DNA of 64,000 nucleotides from Planctomycetota bacterium (lineage in GTDB: Bacteria; Planctomycetota; Phycisphaerae; Phycisphaerales; SM1A02): NCBI GenBank assembly GCA_027618565.1, contig JAQCEQ010000007.1, positions 1 through 64,000 of the forward strand, read 5' to 3'. Below are positions 20,808 to 53,677 of this stretch, piece by piece (within the stretch, counting starts at the first letter, position 1; every line of letters starts with the position of its first letter). The translations under genes were made by a program, and so were the position numbers. The notes under the pieces are model-generated. The model was not told the origin of the DNA, did not search any database, and saw only the letters and a list, made by a program, of their open reading frames with translations.

Positions 20808-21467
20808 ATGAAGTTGAAGTCGAGCATGTTGCTGGTGACCGGACTCGCGGTGCTTGGAGCATTCGCGGGTTGTGACAACAAGATCAAGGACGAGAACGCA
20901 CTCCTACTCAAGGAGAACGACGCACTGCGGGGCCAGCTGGCCCAGCGCAATGAGGCCCTCACGGCCGCGGAGAAGGAGCGCCTGGCCGCCGATGCGCGTG
21001 CCGCCGATGCGGACCAGCGCCTCAAGGACATGGATAGCGCGCCTCCGACCCTCGCCGCCGCCGAGGGCACCACCGGCGGGGTGCTGTTCATCGACGAGAA
21101 CATCACCGTGAACACCACCGCCGAGGGCGTCAACATGACGATTCCCGGCGATGTCCTCTTTGACAGCGGCAGCGCGACGCTCAAGGGCGGCGCGAAGAAG
21201 TCGCTTGACAAGATGATCGCGATGATCAAGTCGGACTACTCGGGCAACAAGATCCGGGTGTCAGGGTTCACCGACAACGATCCGATCAAGCGCTCCAAGT
21301 TCGAGACCAACTACCACCTCGCGTTCGCTCGCGCGTACGCCGTGGGGCAGTACCTCGGCTCCAACGGCATCGACGGGGCTGACGTGGCCTTCGCTTCTTA
21401 TGGCCCGCAGCAGCCGATGGCGACCAAGGCCGGCAGCCGCCGCGTGGAGGTGCTCGTCATTCGTTGA
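20808..21467 (+). CDS. OmpA-family lipoprotein (Pal-like)
   Basis: A 219-residue protein. The signal peptide ends in AFAGC, a good lipobox, with Cys at about 23. A heptad-rich segment follows (ENALLLKENDALRGQLAQRNEAL and on, about 30-75), likely a coiled coil, then an OmpA C-terminal domain with VLFDSGSATLKGGAKKSLDKM, the diaminopimelate-contacting FTDNDP and the final RRVEVLVIR. It is expected in the outer membrane, gripping peptidoglycan. AAAGGA precedes the ATG, with a TAGAGT -10-like hexamer at 20768-20773. A strong terminator follows. Confidence 0.92.
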   Translation: MKLKSSMLLVTGLAVLGAFAGCDNKIKDENALLLKENDALRGQLAQRNEALTAAEKERLAADARAADADQRLKDMDSAPPTLAAAEGTTGGVLFIDENITVNTTAEGVNMTIPGDVLFDSGSATLKGGAKKSLDKMIAMIKSDYSGNKIRVSGFTDNDPIKRSKFETNYHLAFARAYAVGQYLGSNGIDGADVAFASYGPQQPMATKAGSRRVEVLVIR

Positions 21468-21493: not shown

Positions 21494-21526
21494 AGGGGAG
21501 GTGCCCGACGGGTGCCTCCCCTTTTT
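21494..21526 (+). terminator. Rho-independent terminator after the OmpA-family gene
   Basis: AGGGGAGG pairs with CCTCCCCT, with three further GC pairs inside and a 3-base GAC loop; TTTTT follows at once. It lies 26 bp after the stop codon. Confidence 0.9.
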
Positions 21527-21564
21527 CTTGACGGGTGACTGCCGCAGGCGTGATGCACGATCGT

Positions 21565-21648
21565 GCGTGTGGTTCCATCAGATTGTGCCGTTCAACGGCG
21601 CTTTTTGATGGGACTACGGGCGATTCTGTACAACGCCCCACGCGCCCG
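21565..21648 (+). repeat. Dispersed palindromic repeat, copy 1
   Basis: About 80 bases with nested inverted symmetry: CCATCA...TGATGG outside and GCCGTT...AACGGC inside. A second, inverted copy lies at 53440-53512. The two share the blocks CCATCAGA, GCCGTTCAA, CTTTT, GATGGG and CGGGCGATTC in the same order and spacing (one 1-base gap), roughly 80% alike by eye. This copy fills the gap between the OmpA-gene terminator and the convergent MlaD-like gene. Confidence 0.7.
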
Positions 21649-21661
21649 CGCCGCGCCACAA

Positions 21662-22648
21662 CTAGAACTTCACATCCAGACCCTCTTCGCGGACCTTGCG
21701 CAGGAGCAGTTCCATTTCGGCGAGCGTGGACCGAAGCCGGTCGGCGGAGTCTTCCAGAGAGTTGTAGAGGTCCGGGTTGCTCATCAACTGACCGATGGTC
21801 CCCTTGCCTTCGCGTGCCTCGGTGGCGATCGCTTCGACATGGACCAGTGTCGATCGCATTGACTCGACGACAGGCTCCAGCTCCTGCGCACGCAGCTCGA
21901 TGGTGCCAGCGAGCGATCCGAGCGCACGCATCGCCACCGTCGCCTCTTCGATGAGCGTGTTCGCGCGCCACACCGCACTGCGAATGTCGGCCTGGAACTG
22001 CTCATCCGTCAGGATCGCGCTGGCGCCGTCAAAGGCCAACTCGGCGGTCTTGAGCAGCCGGTTGAGCCGGCGAACGCTTGTCCGCACGTTGAACTCTGCC
22101 TCGGCGGAATCCTCCGGGACTTCTGCGACCAGGGTGTCCAGGTTGTTGGCAAGCCTCGTGATGCTCTGGAGCGTCTGGTCCATGTCCCCGAAATTCTCCT
22201 GGAGCGCGGCGAGGAGCCGTTCGTCCAACCCCTTGAAGCTGGCGTGGACCACGGCGCTCCCATCCTTGGGCAGGAACGCGGTCGGGGGCGGACTGTCGCG
22301 AGGGAGGATGAAGTCCAGACTCGCGCCGCCGCCCAGCAGGCTGGCATCGGCGCTGGCTTCCGCATTGGCTGGAATCGCGTTGGCAGTCTCGATGAGCAGG
22401 GTGAGCACGACCGGTTCGGTGAAGTCGGTGTCCAGTGCGACGGTCTGCACCGTGCCGACCGCCACCCCATTGAACATCACTAGGGAGCCGGCACGGAGGC
22501 CGCCGCCGCGGTCGGCCTTCACCGTGACCTCGTAGGTCTTCTTGAACAACGCATCCAGTTCCCCGAACGAGAAGAGGATGGCAGTGAGGGCAGCGAATCC
22601 GCCGACGGTGGTCAGCCCGATCTTGAAATCACGGTTCGCGTCGCTCAT
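21662..22648 (-). CDS. MlaD/MCE-family lipid-transport protein
   Basis: A 328-residue protein with a single N-terminal transmembrane helix (about 8-30), followed by an MCE domain: YEVTVKADRGGGLRAGSLVMFNGVAVGTVQTVAL (in pieces VKADRGGGL, VMFNGVAVGTV), then a long helical stretch to the C-terminus with leucine-rich heptads. It would form a periplasmic ring that passes phospholipid between membranes. Its start overlaps the MlaF-like ATPase stop by 4 bp (ATGA). The permease MlaE, usually between them, is absent here. Confidence 0.88.
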   Translation of the reverse strand: MSDANRDFKIGLTTVGGFAALTAILFSFGELDALFKKTYEVTVKADRGGGLRAGSLVMFNGVAVGTVQTVALDTDFTEPVVLTLLIETANAIPANAEASADASLLGGGASLDFILPRDSPPPTAFLPKDGSAVVHASFKGLDERLLAALQENFGDMDQTLQSITRLANNLDTLVAEVPEDSAEAEFNVRTSVRRLNRLLKTAELAFDGASAILTDEQFQADIRSAVWRANTLIEEATVAMRALGSLAGTIELRAQELEPVVESMRSTLVHVEAIATEAREGKGTIGQLMSNPDLYNSLEDSADRLRSTLAEMELLLRKVREEGLDVKF

Positions 22649-23520
22649 GGCTTGTTCTCGAACACTGTACCCATGGTGCGAGGGCCACCCGTTGGCCAAA
22701 TGGCGGAGAGTTCCTCGGGCGTGGCCTCGCCCCGGAGGAAACGCTGGACGATCGGGTCCCGGGAGATCCAGAAGGAGTCCGGGGGGCCCTGGAGGCGGAC
22801 CTGGCCCTCGTGGAGCATGACCAGCCAGTCGGCGACCTTGAAGGCGCTCTGCAAGTCGTGCGTCACCACGATCGAAGTGATTCCCAGCGACTCCTTGAGC
22901 TTGTTGATCAGCTCGTTGATGATGTCCGACCGAATCGGGTCCAGGCCGGTGGTGGGCTCGTCATAGAGCACCAAGCTCGGTTCCAGGGCGATGGCTCGAG
23001 CCAGCGCGACGCGCTTGCGCTGGCCACCGCTCAGGTCAGTTGGCCACTGCTTGATCGTGTGGGTCAGCCCGACCTGGTCCAGGACCTGCTTGACGCGCTC
23101 CGTGATGGCGCGCTGATCGGTCCAGCCGTGCTCGCGCAGCGGAAAGGCGACATTGTCAAAGACCGTGATGGAATCGAACAGCGCTCCCTGCTGGAAGAGG
23201 AAGCCGATTTCTCGCCTGGCCTGGCCCAACGCCTGCCCGCGCAAGGCATCCATGCGGCGACCGTTGAACCACACTTCACCCCCGTCTGGGCGAAGGAGTG
23301 CCACGATGTGCTTGAGCATCACGCTCTTGCCGCACCCGGACGGACCAAGCACGACGGTGGTCTTCCCGCGCTCGAACTCAATCGTGACCCCCTTGAGGAC
23401 CTCGAGGCGCCCGAACGACTTGCGTAGGTCGACGACGCGGACACAGCAGGTTCCCTCCGGGCATGTGGCGGTACGGGGGTGGCAATCAGCGTGGTTCACT
23501 TGCGACGGCTGCTCGTGCAC
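22645..23520 (-). CDS. MlaF-like ABC transporter ATP-binding protein
   Basis: A 291-residue ATPase of the Mla/Mce group. Walker A is GPSGCGKSVMLKHI, where Val-Met in place of the usual Ser-Thr is common in this group. FLFQQGALFDSITVFDNVAFPLRE is the MlaF-type Q-loop region (quoted in part: FQQGALFDS, VFDNVAFPL). The signature is LSGGQRKRVALARA and Walker B LVLYDEPTTGLDP. The N-terminal 25 residues are Cys/His-rich (NHADCHPRTATCPEGTCC), which is unusual. It pairs with the MlaD-like gene. Confidence 0.9.
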   Translation of the reverse strand: MHEQPSQVNHADCHPRTATCPEGTCCVRVVDLRKSFGRLEVLKGVTIEFERGKTTVVLGPSGCGKSVMLKHIVALLRPDGGEVWFNGRRMDALRGQALGQARREIGFLFQQGALFDSITVFDNVAFPLREHGWTDQRAITERVKQVLDQVGLTHTIKQWPTDLSGGQRKRVALARAIALEPSLVLYDEPTTGLDPIRSDIINELINKLKESLGITSIVVTHDLQSAFKVADWLVMLHEGQVRLQGPPDSFWISRDPIVQRFLRGEATPEELSAIWPTGGPRTMGTVFENKP

Positions 23521-48609: not shown

Positions 48610-49902
48610 TCACCCGATCGGCCCTCGCCAGGCTGCGCGTGTCTGGAGCGCTTCCGAGACCGCATCGGCGTTGCGCTTGGTCGCGCCCTGGTGTGCCCGG
48701 ATGACCTCGCGGCCACGCTCGGCCATGGCGCGACCTTCGTCGCGGTCGCGCAGGTTCGCTGCGATCGACGCGGTGAGCTGCGCCGGGAGGTCCCCTTCTT
48801 CGAGTTGCACGGCCCCGCGACCGCGCACGAGAGCGGCCGCCGTCTCCTTGAAGTCGTCGACGCGAGGGCCAAAGATGACGGGCTTCCCCAGCGCAACCGG
48901 CTCCATCATGTCGCTGCCGTACAGCGCGCCAAAGGTGCGACCGACGATGACCACATCGGCCAGCGAGTACGCCTGGCGGAGTTCGCCAATCGTGTCCAGA
49001 AGGAATCGGCCCGTCGAGGAGCCCGTCTCGCCCTTGCTTCGCCGGGCACATCCTGGGAGTGCCAGCGCAGCCTCGTCAAACCGCTCCGGCTTGCGCGGCG
49101 CGCAGAGCAACTGCACATCCGGTCGTTGGAGTGCGGCGACGGCGTCCCGGAGGAGCGCCTCTTCCTCGGGTCCCGTCGAGCCAGCGACGATGAGCGGGCG
49201 CGAACGGTCGATGCCCATCGCGGCCGCAAGGGCACCTGCGCCCGAGACATCATCCTCGATGCGGGCCTCGTCCCACTTCATCGTGCCCGCCACGGTGACT
49301 CGGTCGCGCGGCGTTCCCAAGGCACAGAATCGCTCCGCATAGGCCGCATCTTGCGCCACGACGGCGTGGACTCCCAGGAACATCGGCAGCGTGAGGTACT
49401 TGACACGGGAGTATCGCCGGAAGCTGCGTTCACTGAGCCTTCCATTGACGACAACCCATGGGATCCCCCGTCGGCGCGCTGCGGACATCTGGTTGGGCCA
49501 GAGTTCCAGTTCGACGCTCACGAAGACATCTGGCGCGACGGTATCGAACAGCGAAGTCACGGGTCTCGACAGGTCCAGGGGATGCCGGATGACGTGGCGC
49601 GTCGCGGGGTGCACGGCGCGAGCGCGTTCGATGCCCGCTGCGGTGGAGACCGAGAGCACCACTTCCGGGCCACCGGGCAGCGCTTCAATCGCGTCAATGA
49701 GTCCGCGACAGGCGTTCACCTCCCCTACCGACACCGCATGGATGAGCACTCGAGGCCGCTTGGGGGCTGGAATGGGGGGGCAATCGGCGAGTCGGCCCCG
49801 CCAGGATGCGAACTTGGCTGGCTTGGTCGCTGCCATCCACGCCAGCCATGGAGACGCGATGACCCCCCCGGCGATGTACGCAGTGTCAACCACCAGTCCC
49901 AT
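48610..49902 (-). CDS. waaA: 3-deoxy-D-manno-octulosonic acid (Kdo) transferase
   Basis: A 430-residue GT-B glycosyltransferase. The N-terminal membrane-associated helix is followed by RGRLADCP, IHAVSVGEVNA, the VELELWPN segment with the catalytic Glu neighbourhood, VVVNGRLSERSFRRY, GTMKWDEA, VAGSTGPEEEALL, and the C-terminal FGALYGSDMMEPVALGKPVIFGP. It adds Kdo to lipid A, so the organism makes an LPS-type outer membrane. TAGGAT ends 6 bases before the ATG, and it shares a 25-bp region with the divergent oxoprolinase gene. Confidence 0.95.
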   Translation of the reverse strand: MGLVVDTAYIAGGVIASPWLAWMAATKPAKFASWRGRLADCPPIPAPKRPRVLIHAVSVGEVNACRGLIDAIEALPGGPEVVLSVSTAAGIERARAVHPATRHVIRHPLDLSRPVTSLFDTVAPDVFVSVELELWPNQMSAARRRGIPWVVVNGRLSERSFRRYSRVKYLTLPMFLGVHAVVAQDAAYAERFCALGTPRDRVTVAGTMKWDEARIEDDVSGAGALAAAMGIDRSRPLIVAGSTGPEEEALLRDAVAALQRPDVQLLCAPRKPERFDEAALALPGCARRSKGETGSSTGRFLLDTIGELRQAYSLADVVIVGRTFGALYGSDMMEPVALGKPVIFGPRVDDFKETAAALVRGRGAVQLEEGDLPAQLTASIAANLRDRDEGRAMAERGREVIRAHQGATKRNADAVSEALQTRAAWRGPIG

Positions 49903-49908
49903 CGTGCC

Positions 49909-49918
49909 ATCCTACGAT
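49909..49918. promoter_or_regulatory. Overlapping divergent -10-like hexamers (waaA / oxoprolinase gene)
   Basis: TAGGAT on the minus strand (49909-49914) ends 6 bases before the waaA ATG, and TACGAT on the plus strand (49913-49918) ends 9 bases before the ATG at 49928. The two share two bases. Confidence 0.45.
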
Positions 49919-49927
49919 CCCACTTCG

Positions 49928-52792
49928 ATGAGTGACCGCTGGCGCATCGCTGTCGATGTCGGCGGCACCTTCACCGATGCCGTCGGGTGCGCGCCCGATG
50001 GCTCTCGACATCGATGCAAGATCCCCAGCGCGGCCGCGGCGCGAGGCGATGATCTCCCCGCTCCCATCGCCGCGGCGCGCACGATGATCGGCCTGCATGG
50101 CGCGGCGGCTCTCCCCCCCATCGACCTGAGGGTCGGGACCACGCGCGGCACGAACGCGCTCCTGGAAGGGAACACCAGCCGCGTGCTCATGGTCGTTCCG
50201 GAGGGGCTTGCAGACATCCTGGAGATCCGGGATCAGCGGCGGCCGGACCTCTTCGCCTGGCACCCCGTGCGGCCGCGACCACCCCTCCACGCCGTGGTCA
50301 CCACTCGTGCGCGACTGGATGCACGCGGGCTCGAGTTGGTGCCACTGGACCGCACGGAGATGGAGCGCGTGGTGGCGGCCGTGCAGGCTGCGGTCACGAC
50401 GCACTCGATCGATGCCATCGGGATTGCGCTGCTGCATGCGGACATCGACCCGCGGCACGAGGCGACGCTGGCCAAGGCGATCCGCGCGGCGACGGGGCTA
50501 AGCGTGTCGGCATCGCATGAGATGGGCCGAGTTCCAGGATTTGTCGAGCGAGCCGGAGCGGCGCAGGTGGACGCGCTGCTGATGCTCCCGATGGCTGGGT
50601 TCGTGGCGTCGATCAGAGCGCACTTGACGCCTGGCAGCAGCCTCCTTCTCATGACCAGTGCCGGTGGGTTGGCCACAGCAGACGACTTTCAGCCCAAGGA
50701 CTGCCTGCTCTCCGGCCCAGCGGGCGGTGTTCGGGGTGCCCTCACTGCGGCGCGCGCGCGTGGGCTTGGCCCGGTGCTGGCGTTTGACATGGGCGGGACT
50801 TCCACCGACATTTCCCGTCTGGAAGGCGAGATCCCGCTGGCGTTCCAGACGACCGTCGCGGGGGTGACGGTAGCCACCCCGTGCACGGCGATCGACACGA
50901 TCGCAGCCGGCGGCGGCAGCATCGTGCGGTGTGTGGCAGGCGCGATACGAATCGGCCCAGAGAGCGCGGGGAGCGTTCCTGGCCCGGCATGCATGGGTCG
51001 AGGCGGCCCGCTCACGCTCACGGATCTGAACCTGCTCGCGGGCCGGCTTGAGGGTGTGCCACTTCGATTGGACCGCGATGCCGCGCGGCTGGCGCTGGGA
51101 ACTGTCCGGCGTGCGCTTGAGGGATCACGAGGCGCGGTTGACGCCGGTGAATTGGTCCAGTCGTGCCTTGGCCTCGCGGATGAATCGATGGCCGCGGCAA
51201 TCCGGCGCGTCGCCGTGAAGCAAGGGTATGAGCCGTCGACCCACACCCTGCTCGCGTTTGGTGGCGCGGGACCATTGCACGCGTGCGCCATTGCCGAGCG
51301 CTTGGGCGTGCACTCGGTGTTCGTGCCGCCGGATGCGGGCCTCCTCAGCGCCTGCGGGATCCAGTCCAGCGTGGAGGAGCGATTCACAGAGCGCGGGCTC
51401 CGACGCGTGCTGGGCGGCTCGTTCGATTGGGTTGGGCTCCTGGGAGAGCTTGCTGAAGAGGCGGGAGCGCGCGATGGATGGCAGATCGACCGAGTCATCG
51501 TGCTGGCACGATTGGAGGGGCAAGAGTCCTCGTTGGCCATCGAGTTCAGCGGGGTCGAGGGCGCCAGCCAGATTGCGCTTGGGCTGCCTGGTCGATTTGC
51601 CTCGGAATACCTCCGCACGTACACCACCGAGCCGCCTCGGCACCGTGCGATCGAGATCGAGTCGGTGCGCATTCGCGCCATTCGACCGGGCGACCTCGCA
51701 CCGATGCGGGCGGAGCGCCAGTCGACCGCTGGCGAGCAGGCCATGATCCCTGGCCCCGCCACCATCAACAGGATGGACTGCACGGTCTTCGTGCCGGCGG
51801 GGTGGCTGGCGTCGGAGCAGGCCGATGGAGGAGTGTGGATCGAGTCTGTCAAGCAACCGAGTGCCTCACCAATCGAGAGCGATCACGCCGGCCTCCTGGG
51901 CGCCGAGGCGATGAGCGCGCGCCTTGCCGGCATCGCCGCGGAAATGGGCGAGTTGCTTCGTCGCACCGCGGTGAGTGTCAACGTGAAGGACCGCCTGGAC
52001 TTTTCCTGCAGCGTGCTGGATGTCGATGGACTCTTGGTCGCCAACGCACCGCACCTTCCCGTGCATCTGGGTTCGATGGGCGAATGCGTGAGAGCGGCGA
52101 CGAAGGGATCTTGGCCCGGGCGACGCGATCGCCGTGAATCACCCGGCGTTTGGTGGGAGCCACCTGCCGGACATCACGGTCATCACGCCAGTGTTTGCGC
52201 CTGCAGCGGAGTCTCATGCCCTCTGCCGAATCGGTTTTGTCGCGACTCGGGCCCACCATGCGGAATTGGGTGGCCCCCTGCCGGGATCGATGCCCCCATT
52301 CGCCACTCGCTTGGTGGACGAAGCAGTCGTGATCCCCCCCACGCTCGTCCGGCGGCGCGGCGTGACGGACCTCACGGCACTCTCGGCATTGCTCCGATCA
52401 CCCCCGTTCCCAAGCCGACTCCCCGAAGAGAACGAGCTGGACCTTCTGGCACAGATCGCAGCGAACGAGCGTGGCGTGAAGGCGTTGAGCGCACTTGGCG
52501 GGACAATCGGCCCCACGGGTCTGCAGTCGTCCATGGACCAGCTCCGCGCGGTGGCGAGGTCCCGCGCCCGCGCCGCCATCGACAGCCTGCCGGAGGACTC
52601 CCTCTCAGCGGAAGAACGGCTGGACGACGGGTCGATTCTCCACGTCGCGATCCATCGCCGTGCGGGAACGCTGGACATCGACTTCTCAGGCAGCGCCGCC
52701 ATCCACCCACGGTCGTTCAATGCTCCGGCCGCTGTCGTTCGCAGCGTGGTGATGTATGTCCTGCGCCTCATCGCAGGCCGCGAGCGTCCTGA
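49928..52792 (+). CDS. Hydantoinase A/oxoprolinase, fused to start of HyuB; reading frame broken
   Basis: The HyuA part (about residues 1-650) has the ASKHA start [61 protein letters not shown] and [17 protein letters not shown]. It then continues without stop into the N-terminus of a HyuB domain ([27 protein letters not shown] in part, then [10 protein letters not shown]). Homology ends at about 52105; the remaining 229 residues in this frame are nonsense, and the HyuB homology resumes one frame over. A single fused protein (5-oxoprolinase layout, about 1180 residues) was evidently the ancestral product. The family opens cyclic imides in an ATP-dependent way. It may be a recent pseudogene or a sequence error. 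Confidence 0.75.
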
Positions 52793-53486
52793 CGAGGCGT
52801 CGGGAATGGTGCTCAACGAGGGCTTCCTGGACGACGTCACGATTCGTGGCCTTGGCGGCATGCTTGGCCCGGCCGTACTGCCCGGCGAAGAGTGGCCGGC
52901 CGTGGGCGCAGGCAACACCGAGACCAGCCAGCGCCTCACCGACCTCATGCTCAAGGCGTGCCGGGTGTGTGCCTGCAGCCAGGGGACGATGAACAACCTG
53001 CTCTTTGGGAATGAGCGATTCGGCTTCTACGAGACCATTGCTGGTGGTGCAGGCGGCTCCCCAGCCGGTGTTGGGTTGAGCGCGACGCACTCGCACATGA
53101 CCAACACTCGAGTCACGGATCCGGAAATCCTGGAGCGCAGGCTGCCGGTGGTGCTGGAGCGGTTTGAGATCCGGCGTGGAAGCGGCGGTGGCGGGGTCCA
53201 TCCCGGCGGCGACGGCGTCGTGAGACGGGTCCGATTCCTGGAACCCGTGGAAGTGACTTTGCTCACGCAACATCGCGTGGAATCCCCCTACGGGGTGGAT
53301 GGCGGAGGTGCGGGCGCCTGCGGCCGGCAGGTGGCCCGCCGCGCGGACGGGACGAGGCAGGAATTGGGGGGCGCGACCGTCGTCCGAATGGATGCCGGTG
53401 ACGCCGTGGAGATCCAGACTCCGGGAGGCGGTGGGTGGGGAGCATTGCGCGAATCGCCCCGCGTCCCCATCGAAAAGTGCCTTTGA
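52134..53486 (+). CDS. Hydantoinase B/oxoprolinase domain, downstream piece of the frameshifted fusion
   Basis: From 52107 this frame reads [22 protein letters not shown], the HyuB segment that should follow MGECVRA in the other frame. It continues with [10 protein letters not shown]-like sequence, [58 protein letters not shown], and the glycine-rich end PGGGGWGAL. The GTG at 52134 is only the first possible start; there is no ribosome-binding site, so this piece is probably not translated alone. The last dozen residues are encoded by the dispersed palindromic repeat. Confidence 0.7.
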
Positions 53487-53512
53487 ACGGCCGATTCTGA
53501 TGGGACCACGAG
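53440..53512 (-). repeat. Dispersed palindromic repeat, copy 2
   Basis: An inverted copy of the element at 21565-21648, read on the minus strand as CCATCAGA, GCCGTTCAA, CTTTT, GATGGG, then GGGGCGATTC. It covers the stop codon and last codons of the HyuB-like frame, so the element also supplies coding sequence. Confidence 0.7.
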
Positions 53513-53677
53513 GATTTCTTCGCAATCGTTGCCGCCCGCATCCGCCAGCGCCCCCTCCAGATTGCAGGCTGAGCGCTTCCGGGACTGAACCGTTCCAGGA
53601 CTCATGCCCTACACTTCAAGGACTGCGCCTATAACCGTATCGTGCAGACAGGTTTGGTCCCACCAAGAGGCTTCACG

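Follow-up and report, generated by a model that had tools for sequence, protein, structure and literature searches.

A small family of palindromic, probably non-autonomous repeats at gene 3′ ends in a planctomycete genome

Taken over its full length, the ERIC sequence forms an imperfect palindrome. Repeats of the ERIC, IRU and RU-1 type are shorter than 200 bp, non-autonomous and mostly intergenic, and their transcripts are predicted to form long stem-loops (PMC2229807, in part). REP elements, which are tagged with GTAG or CGTC and also form REPINs, are palindromic and extragenic, lie 3′ of genes and between convergent or unidirectional open reading frames, can supply stop codons and occur in Planctomycetes too (PMC3733652, in part). 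More than 100 copies is usual for them (PMC2817692, in part), the unit being 20–40 bp long. Elements of the general kind described below, found 3′ of genes and donating stop codons to them, are thus known already (PMC3733652 and PMC2229807, both in part), and what we report is a low-copy new family of a well-known bacterial repeat kind, not a new kind of system. It resembles REP elements in being palindromic and downstream of genes and in giving stop codons, but it is longer (about 82–95 bp), has no constant tag and numbers about ten copies, which are single, in a genome without a match to PF01797. It is small, non-autonomous and mostly intergenic like the ERIC/IRU/RU-1 and MITE-like repeats (Correia/NEMIS, RUP, YPAL), to which we liken it by architecture, although neither TA termini nor a target-site duplication were recognised and the copy number is very low.

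The window, by which we mean the whole stretch of 64,000 nucleotides analysed, is bases 1–64000 of contig 55 of its own genome (G000; 2.26 Mb in 62 contigs, 96.83% complete). It holds two copies, labelled by contig like those elsewhere, with extents set by a covariance model (R1) built from eight copies. Copy 1 (C55a), an imperfect palindrome of about 82 nt, occupies 21553–21634 on the plus strand (E 1.9e-18) and copy 2 (C55b) 53444–53525 on the minus strand (E 4.0e-17), both being members of the training set. The original prediction had paired these stretches by eye, and rightly so: a search with 21541–21680 against the window returns 53513–53437 on the minus strand (nhmmer, E 1.3e-7), blastn gives 84% identity between the copies across 44 bases, and the covariance model finds only these two places in the window up to E 10, each read on both strands. 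Each copy has three nested parts, with outer arms resembling TTGCGCGAAT / ATTCGCGCAA, a middle stem resembling GTGGTCCCATCA / TGATGGGACCAC and, at the tip, a sequence similar to GCCGTTCAACGGC with a T-rich stretch after it; the middle stem of copy 1 is GTGGTTCCATCA / TGATGGGACTAC and its tip GCCGTTCAACGGC. The nested inverted symmetry that had been described for both is strong in copy 1, which folds as RNA at −48.6 kcal/mol (z −6.5, none of 200 shuffles as good) and is among seven palindromes above a symmetry threshold in the window, two first-order Markov controls giving two and one. It is much weaker in copy 2 (z −1.8, 12 of 200 shuffles as good), which does not reach that threshold.

Searching the whole genome with copies 1 and 2 and a consensus by blastn, and with a pattern search, brought to light two more copies on contig 4 and one each on contigs 8, 46, 30, 5 and 16; the hand-made consensus matches eight places at E ≤ 0.003. 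R1 recovers its eight training copies and adds one from outside that set at contig 44:4123–4204 (C44, E 5.0e-7), giving nine full-length copies at E ≤ 5.0e-7. A tenth, truncated copy, C4a (contig 4:20052–20113), has lost its left arm (blastn E 5.0e-8, R1 E 0.90). As copy 1 matches the copy on contig 8 (C8) at E 1.6e-14 by blastn, the similarity is beyond chance. A chance resemblance or one-off duplication of two places, to which the only modest identity of the window copies would correspond, is barely conceivable and is refuted by ten copies, one of them independent of the training of the model.

The 23 rows returned by R1 in this genome consist of the nine elements, nine opposite-strand readings, C4a and four rows for three weak places that we did not count. 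C57:8366 (E 0.023) is a short hairpin without the tip, while C27:36869 (E 0.099, other strand 0.22) and C27:3431 (E 0.68) have other stems and look like terminators. These two contig-27 hairpins (L065 1501–1562 and L067 1501–1572) follow the order of A-rich part, GC tip and T-rich part seen in the elements but are built on different stems, and are probably terminators. Among the blastn rows obtained with copy 1 after the first three (E 0.026–2.05), the copies on contigs 16 and 5 were later confirmed by R1 and the other five were dropped.

The copies fall into two classes. Seven, including both window copies, form class A with the middle stem CCATCA, of which the truncated copy keeps the right arm; the three of class B (C5, C16 and C44) have ACACCA in its place. 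Mean identity within class A is 63% over the 21 pairs of seven copies, the truncated one included, a divergence which counts against a mobile repeat and from which we take any activity to have been old or slow. The most alike are C55a and C8, with 96% identity over 45 bases, as expected if they are the youngest insertions, since their sites are empty in both of the congeners compared.

These congeners were G001 (84% complete) and G002 (88% complete), in both of which four of the loci were compared. Upstream of copy 1 lies an OmpA-family gene (20808–21467, plus strand; PF00691, E 5.4e-14) followed by its own terminator-like hairpin and T-run (21495–21526, plus strand, by eye), separate from the copy; beyond the copy a convergent MlaD-family gene occupies 21662–22699 on the minus strand (PF02470, E 5.9e-12). 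The same order of OmpA gene, terminator and mlaD is syntenic in both congeners, where hairpins with T-runs are seen by eye at the same place after the OmpA gene and the element is absent. The distance from the T-run to the MlaD stop is 135 nt here against 40 in G001 and 39 in G002, so that about 95 bp have been inserted, approximately at 21554–21647, the boundaries of this unstranded segment being approximate. Likewise, the order of rpsI (ribosomal protein S9), terminator and convergent gene around C8 is syntenic in both congeners without the element. Absence at two syntenic loci in two congeners points to insertion in the lineage of this genome, or to loss in both others. By eye no target-site duplication was recognised at the OmpA/mlaD and rpsI loci, where the congener flanks are too diverged for exact ends, and this too may weigh against a mobile repeat. 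At the histidine phosphatase locus the element begins one base past the gene end. That neither window copy sits in a mobile element, as had been remarked, overlooks that the repeat itself looks like one.

Copy 2 departs from the purely intergenic placement first proposed for both copies, because it overlaps the 3′ end of a hydantoinase-B reading frame (52134–53486, plus strand; PF02538, E 3.3e-123). The last 13 codons and the stop (53445–53486, plus strand) lie inside the copy, the TGA being in the hairpin tip, and the Pfam match ends at residue 437 of 450. In the congeners the protein ends differently, with GGGGWGKAVQ (G001) or GGGGWGDPTRHSL (G002) before the stop. Similarly, of the 513 residues of the convergent gene at C8, those up to 503 or 501 align with its congener counterparts while its remaining tail is inside the element, and thus at both C55b and C8 a C-terminal tail is encoded by the repeat. 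The hydantoinase A/B reading frame of the window is broken between 49391 and 53486: the hydantoinase-B match begins in the open frame 49391–52792 and continues in another frame in 52134–53486, while the matches in G001 and G002 are open frames of 1202 and 1242 residues. This may be a frameshift mutation or an assembly error.

Every one of the ten copies is found at a gene 3′ end. With open frames, the GC content of codon positions and Pfam as the guide, six have convergent neighbours, four have tandem ones and none has divergent ones. The convergent pairs are OmpA and MlaD (C55a), ribosomal S9 and a gene with weak helix-turn-helix matches (C8), RmuC and histidine phosphatase (C46), tyrosyl-tRNA synthetase and a gene without a Pfam match (C30), DciA and a thioesterase (C4a), and two frames without a Pfam match at C5, the least certain context. 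The tandem pairs involve hydantoinase B and the following frame (C55b), glycine dehydrogenase (C4b), a reprolysin-like protein (C16) and a ZIP transporter (C44). The expectation that copies would always be intergenic and 3′ of genes therefore holds as to the 3′ end; as to being intergenic it does not, at least five copies containing the stop codon of an adjoining frame (hydantoinase B, the minus-strand gene at C8, the minus-strand frame at C5, glycine dehydrogenase and ZIP). A rough gene call on this window alone, which misses the hydantoinase-B frame, gave 52 junctions, of which 12 are convergent, 29 tandem and 11 divergent; at these rates the probability of six or more convergent among ten is 0.013 and that of no divergent among ten is 0.09.

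The window copies do translate to similar peptides in one frame, as had been correctly read, and copy 2, C8 and C5 do overlap reading-frame ends. On this basis one could imagine a short conserved peptide, or a fused coding palindrome like the Rickettsia RPE. Those tails, however, use a different frame from that of the proposed peptide, or the opposite strand. When its frame is translated in eight copies, stops interrupt C4b, a one-base shift displaces C30, C5 begins with a stop and nothing similar to the peptide appears in C16, which refutes the proposed frame. Among the four copies that keep it, pairwise differences fall 17, 13 and 19 on codon positions 1, 2 and 3, and of the 43 codon pairs that differ, 27 change the amino acid. 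We regard a coding function as extremely improbable.

Whether the family belongs to the REP elements proper turns on the transposase, the tag and the copy number. The suggestion of a REP-like dispersed palindrome is borne out by ten copies, all at gene 3′ ends, and by insertion at two loci, and the extragenic or downstream position and supplied stop codons are those of REPs (PMC3733652, in part). A RAYT link, a tag at a constant place, a high copy number and the 20–40 bp unit were not found. A search for the Y1/RAYT transposase family PF01797, the proposed mobiliser, gave no match in this genome (96.8% complete), in G001 (84%) or in G002 (88%), while it matched in 11 of the 21 genomes searched. 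Neither GTAG nor CGTC stands at a constant place in the 73 nt scanned around the tip of the ten copies, the outermost bases lying outside the scan. The right arms of C16 and C44 do contain GTAG, and C5 and C55a contain its complement CTAC, but this leaves six of the ten copies without it and it is not at one place in the other four; CGTC occurs in C30 and GACG in C55b, C4a and C44. A classical GTAG/CGTC REP mobilised by a RAYT tyrosine transposase is accordingly very unlikely. Features of MITE- or ERIC-like repeats are present in the dispersed similar copies without coding capacity, in sites filled here and empty in relatives (OmpA/mlaD and rpsI) and in the palindromic architecture. When eight copies are taken together, 72.8% of cells are paired, and sliding the partners lowers this to 34.7–40.6%; the family is therefore palindromic.

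Outside this genome the family appears to be confined. R1 matched at E ≤ 0.01 in five of 181 family genomes, this one included (best elsewhere 5.5e-5), in a search whose stricter filters mean that weak copies may be missed, and by eye none of the four others holds a full class A or B element. We did not count as copies G028 (E 0.001), which has a class-A-like stem GGTCCCACCA / TGGTGGCACC and no tip; G112 (E 0.003); the two places in G030 (E 0.005 and 0.010), which belong to one repeat of about 290 bp; or G001:C3:36322 (E 5.5e-5), a perfect 27–28 bp hairpin with a similar tip and another stem. The G030 stretch, with a similar-tip hairpin, is found on two contigs at 92% identity (L072 1493–1782 and L073 1296–1585); by eye, each occurrence precedes a different secreted-looking frame, and one of these frames includes a dockerin-like stretch. 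The G001:C3 hairpin (L069 1514–1570), with the tip TGTGCCCTTCAAGGGCACA, is flanked by the end of a plus-strand frame and by a frame that converges on it and has a dockerin-like end. Dockerin-like C-termini at related loci are reminiscent of Phycisphaerae. In the genome_contigs collection, which may leave out records near the window's own genome, the exact class A pattern has one site, in Marinobacter, which we read as chance since by eye its surroundings do not match the element. A phage or plasmid origin was likewise set aside: 21540–21655 had no match in the plasmid and phage collections (blastn distant mode, E ≤ 0.01), nor had the exact class A pattern in viral contigs. A literature search at the level of titles and the start of abstracts did not turn up this repeat.

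In congener G001 the hydantoinase-B and histidine phosphatase genes are followed at their 3′ ends by another palindrome, with the stem CTCAGGCC / GGCCTGAG and the tip GGCCTCTGAGAGGC. It too is dispersed, being found at seven places in G001 at E ≤ 1.4e-4 (L084, L086, L087, L088, L089, L091 and L092, from 1501) and at none in G002 at E ≤ 1. The 16 rows of this search comprise those seven places, four opposite-strand readings and four weak rows in G001, and one weak row in G000 (E 0.82). Comparing the flanks of 12 loci of G000 with eight of G001 revealed a third shared site at the end of the ZIP transporter (C44 and G001 C45). The shared ends, of hydantoinase B, the histidine phosphatase/RmuC pair and the ZIP transporter, have the same layout with different stems. 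Because the first two had led to the G001 family, although the ZIP site had no part in finding it, the excess is suggestive and not a clean test. A match of the C16 flank with neighbours of the G001 copies C42 and C47:65974, over 55–70 residues of a dockerin-like C-terminus, may reflect only a shared domain and was not counted. No such hairpin stands at the OmpA/mlaD and rpsI ends in G001, and inspection of the four loci in G002 by eye showed none. The hairpins paired at the three shared sites are 33–44% identical, about the general level between the families (0.39–0.44): mean identity to the G001 group, here including C3, is 0.39 for class A (0.38 reversed) and 0.44 for class B (0.44 reversed). 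The 15-base string GGGTTCGACTCCTGC, common to the class B copy C5 and G001 C47:9128, may hint at a link between the families. Random insertion would not have predicted that three copies here are at gene ends with another palindrome in G001. Certain gene 3′ ends in the genus might be shared hairpin sites whose palindrome is replaced or rewritten in each species, either by mobile palindromes homing to the same ends or by an ancestral hairpin family evolving in concert, its stem changing genome-wide within a species; we consider this rather unlikely.

The differently stemmed hairpins of G001 at three of the same ends would also suit a functional RNA hairpin, a terminator or mRNA stabiliser selected at certain genes, in which the sequence drifts and the pairing is kept. 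The location of all ten copies and the strong fold of copy 1 fit this, as do the stems of classes A and B, which differ by paired changes (alignment A2 columns 19–64, 21–62, 23–60 and 26–57). The covariation score over the eight copies, 0.222, is somewhat above the 0.177 obtained on shuffling partners (21 of 500 as high; 0.064–0.125 when slid), as constrained RNA would also give, which counts against a mobile repeat. This excess comes with the difference between A and B, and such paired changes could likewise be found in a palindrome that is copied whole. Pairing itself, on the other hand, remains at 70.4% when partners are shuffled among the eight copies, 36 of 500 shuffles being as high as the 72.8% observed. 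Among the six full copies of class A, pairing between the two arms of a copy is no better than with the arms of other copies (0.812 against 0.825); changes in this class therefore go uncompensated, as decaying inserts would lead one to expect. The fold of copy 2 is hardly better than that of its shuffles, by eye OmpA and rpsI own separate terminator-like hairpins, and by eye G002 lacks such a hairpin at the loci compared. The inner GC hairpin of the tip with its T-rich stretch on one strand does recall an intrinsic terminator, but here that stretch is inside a larger palindrome and is interrupted in several copies. Relative to the tandem genes the element runs antisense at C55b and C4b but sense at C16; given this mixture, and the separate hairpins at two loci, we reject an orientation-specific terminator. 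Rfam gave no match at the elements up to E 1 in 11 loci (nine copies of G000 and two of G001) and none at gathering score at the two copies in the window. A selected 3′-end RNA seems to us unlikely.

The window pair are thus probably members of a small, species-specific family of imperfectly palindromic, non-coding, non-autonomous repeats of about 82–95 bp, of the REP/ERIC/MITE kind. Some transposase, or a single-strand or replication-linked process acting on the hairpin, would have copied the elements around, though no mobilising enzyme was found with PF01797, the family tested. Insertions elsewhere would presumably have been removed by selection in the compact genome, so that the survivors are downstream of genes. 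In transcripts the copies would form a 3′ hairpin and may modulate mRNA 3′ ends, though nothing shows selection for this. A compact genome that yielded no RAYT-type transposase thus harbours a small family of palindromic repeats, whose insertion is seen at two loci relative to two congeners; insertions of this kind also lie in protein C-termini. The pattern of sites shared with the congener is the one point worth following, as it offers a concrete test of hairpins homing to particular gene ends.
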